In this document: piece by piece, positions 56,777 through 58,997 of the stretch
How the letters are laid out: each line of letters starts with the position of its first letter
Numbering within the stretch: the first letter of the stretch is position 1
Source of the DNA: an uncultured Pelagibacteraceae bacterium
GTDB lineage: Bacteria; Pseudomonadota; Alphaproteobacteria; Pelagibacterales; Pelagibacteraceae
DNA: 64,000 nt
Direction: 5' to 3'
Assembly (NCBI GenBank): GCA_902636025.1
Contig: CACPQG010000001.1
Coordinates: 371,636 to 435,635 of the forward strand
The notes under the pieces: model-generated
The model's database searches: none
Told to the model about the DNA's origin: nothing
What the model saw: the letters and a program-made list of their open reading frames with translations, nothing else
Program-made: the position numbers and the translations under genes

Positions 56777-57616
56777 ATGAGAGTTTATAGAATTAATTCT
56801 CGAGCAAAGATCAATCTTAATTTAAATATAATCAGGAAATCCAAAAAAAAAAAAGTGCATTTAATCGAGTCTCTTGTTTGTTTTGTGAATCTATCTGATA
56901 AAATTTATATAAATAAGTCTACCTCAAAATATCATAAAGTTAAATTTATAGGAAAATTTTCAAAAAAAATTACAAAAAAAAATACAGTTACAAAGTTACT
57001 TAGCTTGTTGGATAAAGATAATGTTTTGAAAAATAAATATAAAATTCTGGTTAAAAAAGAAATTCCACTTCAATCTGGGATGGGAGGCGGGTCAATGAAT
57101 GCAGCAAACTTATTAAACTATTTCTACAAAAAAAAGATTATAAATTTGAAAAAATTAAAAAAGTATTCTCTAAAAATTGGATCCGATGTTATTCTTGGGT
57201 TGAATACTAAGCCAAAAATTTTATATAGGGATGGATCTATAAAAGAAGTTGCAGATATTAAAAAATATCATGTCTTAATTGTAAAACCTACATTTGGTTG
57301 TTCGACTAAGAAAATATATTCATCAAATAAAACTTTTTCTAAATCTGAGTTTAATATACCAAAAGAAAAAATTGTTAAGAATGTGATTCTTAACGGTAAA
57401 AATGACTTAGAAAAAAGCGCCTTTAATATACATCCAGCCTTAAAAAAAATTAAAAATTTACTTAATCAAAACGAAAAAGCTAATTTTGTTAGAATGACAG
57501 GTTCTGGATCTGCGATAATTATGTACTTTAATTCAAATAAATTTGCAAAAAATGCTTTGAAAATTTATAAAAGGAAATTAAATAATTGTTTGTGTATTAT
57601 AACTAAAATTATATAA
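56777..57616 (+). CDS. ispE: 4-diphosphocytidyl-2-C-methyl-D-erythritol kinase
   Basis: AKINLNLNII, IPLQSGMGGGSMNAANLLN, RMTGSGSAIIMYF. Confidence 0.93.
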   Translation: MRVYRINSRAKINLNLNIIRKSKKKKVHLIESLVCFVNLSDKIYINKSTSKYHKVKFIGKFSKKITKKNTVTKLLSLLDKDNVLKNKYKILVKKEIPLQSGMGGGSMNAANLLNYFYKKKIINLKKLKKYSLKIGSDVILGLNTKPKILYRDGSIKEVADIKKYHVLIVKPTFGCSTKKIYSSNKTFSKSEFNIPKEKIVKNVILNGKNDLEKSAFNIHPALKKIKNLLNQNEKANFVRMTGSGSAIIMYFNSNKFAKNALKIYKRKLNNCLCIITKII

Positions 57617-57644
57617 AAAGTTGCGATATAAAATAGATAATTTT

Positions 57645-57719
57645 TGGGGCGTAGCCAAGTGGTAAGGCAGCGGTTTTTGGTACCGCCATTCCTAGGTTCG
57701 AATCCTAGCGCCCCAGCCA
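57645..57719 (+). tRNA. tRNA-Gln (anticodon TTG), CCA encoded
   Basis: Acceptor TGGGGCG/CGCCCCA, anticodon stem GCGGT-TTTTGGT-ACCGC, T-loop GGTTCGAATCC, followed by G-CCA. Confidence 0.97.
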
Positions 57720-57722
57720 GAT

Positions 57723-58997
57723 ATGCTAAGTATTATAAATAAAATCTTTTCATCAACAAAAAATCTAAACACTATAAATCAAAGATTTATAAGGTTAAGA
57801 AAAGATACAAATGTAGAAAAAATTTTTCATGCAATTGAAAGTTATTCAAGTGAAGCCGAGATAAGATATGTCGGAGGTTGTGTAAGAAAAATAATTAATA
57901 ATGAACAAGTTGATGATATTGACCTAGCAACAAATATAGATCCAACAAAGGTAAAAGAGGCTCTAAAAAACAATAATTTAAAATTTTTTGAGACTGGTAT
58001 TGAACACGGAACAATTACAGCTTTAATAGAAAATGATAAATTTGAAATTACTTCTTTAAGAAGTGATATTAAAACTGATGGACGTCATGCAGAAATAGAA
58101 TTTACGACAGATTGGATTAAAGACGCTCAAAGACGCGACTTTACTATCAACTCCATATATGCAGATATTAACGGAAATTTATTTGATCCTTTTGATGGGA
58201 AAAAAGATTTAGAAAACGGATTAATAAAATTCATAAGAAAGCCAGAACAAAGAATAAAAGAAGACTACTTAAGAATACTAAGGTATTTCAGATTTTTTGC
58301 ATTATATAGCAAAAATGACCACAGTTTAGCAGTTAAAAATATAATTAAAAAAAATATAGTAGGTATAAAAAAACTATCATCAGAGAGATTGCTAGATGAA
58401 TTGAAAAAAACTTTTAAATCAAATTGCTTTATAAAATTATGCGAAGATGAATTTTCTTACAAAATAATTTCTGCAGTCTTTCCTGAATTTAAACAAATCG
58501 AATTATTAAGAAAATTAAATGATTACACAAAATTAAACTTGCATAGTCTAGACTTTGTATTTTTCTTATCACTTTTGATCCTTGATGATACAGATAATTC
58601 TGATTATTTTTTTTTTAAATTTAATGTTTCAAAAAAAAATCAAAAAAGAATAAAATCAATTAAAAATTTTTATTTTAGCAAAAAATTACCTCTTAAATTT
58701 ACATCTCAAAATCTTTGGAAAATATTTTATTTTAACGGTAAGGAAGGATTGATTGATATTTTAAATTACAAAATATTTACCTCTAAAAAATTTGATAAAA
58801 GTTTAGTAAATCAAATTAATTATTTTAAAAATAAAGAGCTACCCAAATTACCCATCACTGGAGGTGATTTAATTAAAGATTTTGGTATTCCAGAGGGAGA
58901 AACTGTAGGCGAGAAACTAAAAGAAATAGAGAATATCTGGATTAATAACAATTTTAAAATCTCTGATAAAAATCTAAAAAAAATATTAAAAAATTAA
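57723..58997 (+). CDS. CCA tRNA nucleotidyltransferase / poly(A) polymerase family
   Basis: RYVGGCVRKI, DIDLATNIDP, RRDFTINSIYADINGNLFDPFDGKKDL. Confidence 0.93.
   Translation: MLSIINKIFSSTKNLNTINQRFIRLRKDTNVEKIFHAIESYSSEAEIRYVGGCVRKIINNEQVDDIDLATNIDPTKVKEALKNNNLKFFETGIEHGTITALIENDKFEITSLRSDIKTDGRHAEIEFTTDWIKDAQRRDFTINSIYADINGNLFDPFDGKKDLENGLIKFIRKPEQRIKEDYLRILRYFRFFALYSKNDHSLAVKNIIKKNIVGIKKLSSERLLDELKKTFKSNCFIKLCEDEFSYKIISAVFPEFKQIELLRKLNDYTKLNLHSLDFVFFLSLLILDDTDNSDYFFFKFNVSKKNQKRIKSIKNFYFSKKLPLKFTSQNLWKIFYFNGKEGLIDILNYKIFTSKKFDKSLVNQINYFKNKELPKLPITGGDLIKDFGIPEGETVGEKLKEIENIWINNNFKISDKNLKKILKN

Follow-up and report, generated by a model that had tools for sequence, protein, structure and literature searches.

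Background

The literature that we found on tRNA punctuation concerns mainly mitochondria. There, as in the SAR11 bacteria considered here, tRNAs abut protein genes and their excision is expected to set near-leaderless mRNA 5′ ends. The Pelagibacteraceae differ from mitochondria in that they are free-living, that most of their genes do not lie behind a tRNA, and that the tRNA has a promoter-like element of its own; at the locus described below the tRNA is presumably excised. Among bacteria, thrT-tufB and metY-nusA of E. coli resemble this locus in joining a tRNA and a downstream protein gene in one transcript, as is predicted here, although these tRNA-mRNA co-transcripts have a longer leader after the tRNA. 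The usual bacterial leaderless mRNAs arise by transcription that starts at the AUG, whereas the 5′ end predicted for the cca mRNA would come from tRNA processing. The predicted mRNA is otherwise like other leaderless mRNAs of bacteria, with an AUG at or near the 5′ end and no Shine-Dalgarno sequence (PMC9031893), and leaderless mRNAs have been mapped by their transcription start sites (PMC4681348). No report of tRNA-derived leaderless mRNAs in SAR11 was found in the literature searched.

We analyzed a 64,000-nucleotide stretch of Pelagibacteraceae (SAR11) DNA, hereafter the window, in which a tRNA-Gln gene almost touches cca, the gene for a probable CCA tRNA nucleotidyltransferase. The nearest named relatives of this cca are from single-cell and metagenome genomes of Pelagibacteraceae and from Ca. 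Pelagibacter. The arrangement resembles tRNA punctuation in three respects: a spacer of 3-5 nt at 95/95 cca loci, about seven more tRNA-to-gene junctions within about 12 nt in three genomes taken together, and no promoter-like site found between the tRNA and cca. On balance, and with modest confidence, we favor a reading in which tRNA-Gln and cca form one unit under the tRNA promoter, excision of the tRNA yields a near-leaderless cca mRNA, no dedicated feedback is involved, and the junction arose through loss of a block of genes.

Structure of the tRNA-Gln/cca locus

The single tRNA called by ARAGORN in the window was tRNA-Gln(UUG) (anticodon ttg; 57645-57719, + strand), which matched the Rfam tRNA model at 64.3 bits and encodes its CCA. 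The CCA ends at 57719 and is followed by a 3-nt spacer, GAT (57720-57722, + strand), which ends in a T that does not vary within the genus, and then by the ATG of cca at 57723-57725; the junction reads ...GCGCCCCAGCCA GAT ATG.... The upstream neighbor ispE (56777-57616, + strand) ends 28 nt before the tRNA, and 24-50 nt before it in relatives; its synteny is conserved and it is a possible source of read-through. A -10-like TATAAA, read directly from the sequence, lies at 57627-57632 on the + strand. The original prediction had placed the CCA end, the spacer, the start codon and the TATAAA at exactly these positions.

The cca open reading frame (57723-58997, + strand) encodes 424 aa. The product matched the PolyA_pol head domain (PF01743, E 4e-31, 108 bits, above cut-off) and tRNA_NucTran2_2 (E 1.6e-8). 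Its best NCBIfam model was the CCA-enzyme model NF009814 (E 5.5e-54), at 184 bits under the curated cut-off of 290, and the PcnB model scored 88 bits. The closest solved relatives were structures of human mitochondrial TRNT1 (8cbm/4x4w, E ~2e-55, phmmer); the DDIDLA and RRDFTINS motifs of Cca align to the human enzyme and the class II signature is present. Judged by these matches, Cca is a class II tRNA nucleotidyltransferase, and CCA-adding activity is likely.

Codons 2-50 of cca contain zero ATG, GTG or TTG, and upstream the frame runs into a TAG in the T arm of the tRNA, with no start codon between this TAG and the ATG at 57723. This ATG is therefore the sole standard start. A start further downstream, for example around residue 20-35, is ruled out by the absent start codons and by the conservation of the N-terminus in relatives; the start is ATG in 95/95 loci. 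Attention had also been drawn to the missing Shine-Dalgarno sequence. No Shine-Dalgarno-like 4-mer indeed precedes the cca start, but its absence is not a distinctive feature of this gene, as such 4-mers occur at just 6 of the 67 starts in the window and are absent from the other 61.

Conservation of the junction

We searched 150 relatives for cca, and 125 had a match. All 70 loci fetched from the genus of the window carried tRNA-Gln(UUG) immediately upstream of cca; no tRNA-Gln lay immediately before cca in 17 loci of the other Pelagibacterales family or in 3 class-level outgroups. The conservation set consisted of 95 distinct complete Pelagibacteraceae cca loci. tRNA-Gln(UUG) stood directly before cca in every one of them, with a spacer of 3 nt in 87, 4 nt in 5 and 5 nt in 3. 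As the abutment holds in 95/95 loci over Cca proteins down to about 40-57% identity to the window protein, the arrangement is not a matter of chance. The spacing on which the original prediction was built is thus confirmed, and it extends to the whole sampled Pelagibacteraceae family.

A Cca protein tree of length 18.8 implied 4 changes of spacer length. Within the 3-nt spacers, base 1 changed 17 times, base 2 changed 11 times and base 3, always T, did not change, compared with a mean of 17 changes for third codon positions of cca. T precedes the ATG in 94/95 loci, the exception being the divergent L181 (spacer AAAAA). Because T precedes 24/67 starts in the window, the spacer T looks selected at the tRNA-Gln/cca junction. 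Two readings of this T are possible. An mRNA U(-1) can extend its pairing to A37 of the initiator tRNA, and the invariant base may serve this pairing; or it may be part of a nuclease site. The RNase E motif RNWU spans the junction in 90/95 loci, but 72% would be expected once the T is fixed, and the motif is hence a weak signal of RNase E. We also rejected the idea that a T ahead of the start codon marks genes behind tRNAs in general, as the base at the hisS junction is usually A.

Two loci were unusual in other ways. At L008 (2776-2849; genome G062, the same as L164 RIS_SAG_41), a different, foreign-looking tRNA-Gln (TGGCCCATGGTGAAG...) lies upstream of cca, while the promoter element, the ispE end and the 3-nt spacer are retained; G062 gave no further match to the usual tRNA-Gln. 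A phage source for the swapped tRNA was considered and set aside, as only distant phage tRNA-Gln matches were obtained (<=80% identity over part of the gene). In L022 (G076), cca appears to differ from its relatives by one base that disrupts the reading frame close to the start, probably an assembly error.

Origin of the junction

In the other Pelagibacterales family, four genomes showed the order ispE - tRNA-Gln - block - cca - greA - hemF, with a block of ~3-4 kb. By Pfam matches in one genome, a carboxymuconolactone-decarboxylase-like gene adjoins the tRNA, and cca is directly preceded by DUF1285 and NUDIX genes. The block is absent in Pelagibacteraceae, where tRNA-Gln meets cca. As the other family has the same synteny with these extra genes, the junction probably arose via deletion of the block in the Pelagibacteraceae lineage. 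Deletion seems likelier than insertion, since DUF1285-NUDIX-cca is a common alphaproteobacterial gene order.

Promoter and shared transcription

The motif TGnTATA, its TATA beginning 15-17 nt upstream of the tRNA, was present in 73/95 loci, against 4.9 expected in shuffles, a comparison that ignores relatedness. In the clade of the window, this promoter-like element takes a shifted and weaker form, TATAAA, 18 nt upstream of the tRNA. Neither a promoter-like site on the + strand nor a terminator-like site was found between tRNA-Gln and the cca start. A separate cca promoter inside the tRNA was likewise rejected, as no promoter-like site was found there. The earlier suggestion that the tRNA and cca share one promoter gains support from the conserved element before the tRNA and from the lack of one between the two genes; such a promoter is plausible, and we infer that tRNA-Gln and cca are co-transcribed.

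tRNA-to-gene junctions elsewhere in the genomes

Genome-wide figures were drawn from tRNA loci in five genomes, four from Pelagibacterales and one from an outgroup. Three of them (G012, G082 and G000) together have about eight tRNAs, that of cca included, with an ATG-started gene within about 12 nt, and each of the three shows most of these junctions. The others were His-hisS, Leu(UAG)-tig (trigger factor), Leu(CAA)-AMP-binding enzyme, Pro-NDUFS4-like, Gly-pterin dehydratase and Glu-GIY-YIG, as well as NAD kinase after tRNA-Leu(UAA) in G082. The His-hisS junction is conserved, mostly at 4 nt and usually as CCA-AAAA-ATG. The sister-family genome G091 had no tRNA-gene junction closer than 9 nt, and none of the 30 tRNAs read in the outgroup G147 had an ATG-started gene less than 23 nt behind it. 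Since the same tight packing is found behind several other tRNAs, it looks like a mitochondria-like habit of tRNA punctuation and not like a special feedback loop. All tRNAs read in G012 (30) and G082 (29) encode CCA. Separately, at L114 (G012) the NAD-kinase-like frame after tRNA-Leu(UAA) is interrupted early, by a sequencing error or a real frameshift.

Processing of the transcript and alternative explanations

In the reading that we favor, the promoter just upstream of the tRNA would mainly drive the tRNA-Gln(UUG)-cca unit, with a possible contribution from ispE read-through. RNase P would cut the 5′ end of the tRNA, and an endonuclease, most likely RNase E, would cut at or 0-3 nt from the encoded CCA. 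This would leave the cca mRNA with a leader of about 0-3 nt, whose 5′-proximal AUG would be translated without a Shine-Dalgarno sequence. With an acceptor stem folded 3 nt ahead of the AUG, the upstream mRNA path of the ribosome should be obstructed; as the folded tRNA would hinder ribosome binding, cca translation probably depends on release of the tRNA. We infer the 5′ end of the cca mRNA, the cutting enzyme and the mode of translation. A near-leaderless cca mRNA is plausible, and would follow from shared transcription, the start codon, the spacing and tRNA excision taken together.

The nucleases encoded by these bacteria bear on the cutting step. RNase E was present in 9/9 genomes searched. 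RNase PH was found in two sister-family genomes and the outgroup, but not in six Pelagibacteraceae genomes (G000, G012, G082, G004, G039 and G086), where the matches were proteins of PNPase length. The sampled Pelagibacteraceae also yielded no convincing RNase Z; the sole match to the RNase Z model was weak, and in G082 it is a beta-lactamase-fold protein that matches Lactamase_B_2. It is possible that a divergent RNase Z or another nuclease was overlooked. With RNase PH not found and no convincing RNase Z, RNase E is likely the 3′ cutter of tRNA-Gln. The three proline tRNAs of E. coli provide a precedent, for SAR11 by analogy only, for an endonuclease whose cut at the encoded CCA itself yields the 3′ end; RNase E cleavage reportedly gives the mature 3′ ends of all three (Mohanty 2016, cited in PMC9841416).

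The tRNA-Gln/cca junction is one of about seven or eight in these streamlined genomes. A broader scheme, which we put forward tentatively and regard as rather doubtful in its full extent, is a bacterial form of tRNA punctuation in which RNase PH and RNase Z were lost, an endonuclease cuts directly at the CCA and thereby frees near-leaderless mRNAs of a fixed set of genes, among them cca, hisS and tig, and tRNA processing gates the translation of these genes. Should tRNA excision prove to generate these mRNA 5′ ends, a gene-expression layout best known from mitochondria would operate in bacteria that are among the most abundant in the sea, and synthesis of several housekeeping proteins would have to await the removal of a tRNA from the transcript. 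The scheme also connects, in a testable way, gene packing with the loss of exonucleases that trim tRNAs. Its consequence for cca by itself would be modest, in that a tRNA promoter drives an enzyme of tRNA-end repair.

Each transcript might instead be committed to one of two fates, tRNA or mRNA. The tRNA 3′ end would then be produced by cleavage within cca and exonucleolytic trimming, at the cost of the mRNA, and cca would be translated from unprocessed transcripts only. The 3′ ends of E. coli tRNAs are usually generated by a cut a few nucleotides downstream and subsequent exonuclease trimming (PMC4681348); just 3 nt are available here, and every Pelagibacteraceae genome sampled encodes a short RNase D-like protein. 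We nevertheless think this unlikely. RNase PH was not found in the six genomes named above, the folded tRNA 3 nt before the AUG would leave no single-stranded landing site on an unprocessed transcript, and genes expected to be essential, such as hisS, would come only from failed processing.

That the junction merely reflects streamlining is, in our judgment, improbable. Small gaps would then occur everywhere, cca would be transcribed separately or by read-through, and the junction would be of no functional consequence. Intergenic regions of Ca. P. ubique indeed have a median length of 3 nt (PMC2704228), and coding sequences in the window are separated by gaps of this size. A tRNA, however, must be excised, unlike a neighboring coding sequence, and the gap thus has consequences; moreover, adjacent spacer bases vary but the T next to the ATG does not, and a separate cca promoter was not found.

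The original prediction had gone beyond a shared promoter to a possible processing-linked feedback in which the state of the enzyme's product, the tRNA 3′ end, controls the cca mRNA; although the enzyme acts on tRNA 3′ ends, its gene lies behind a tRNA in a conserved arrangement, and it has real work in the window genome, whose tRNA-His and tRNA-Phe are without a full encoded CCA, we consider this very improbable, since all 95 tRNA-Gln genes encode CCA and do not need the enzyme for their 3′ end, the same architecture precedes unrelated genes (tig, the AMP-binding, NDUFS4-like, pterin dehydratase and GIY-YIG genes, and also hisS), and no element sensing CCA-enzyme activity was found at the locus. 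The interpretation first offered for this locus is thus partly supported: a shared promoter and a near-leaderless mRNA are plausible, and the feedback is not supported.

The tRNA genes before hisS were themselves variable. The full CCA of the tRNA-Phe/tRNA-His at this place is missing in some relatives as well as in the window genome, and very different tRNA-Phe/tRNA-His sequences occupy the same place before hisS in different Pelagibacteraceae (L144, L139 and L315-L318).
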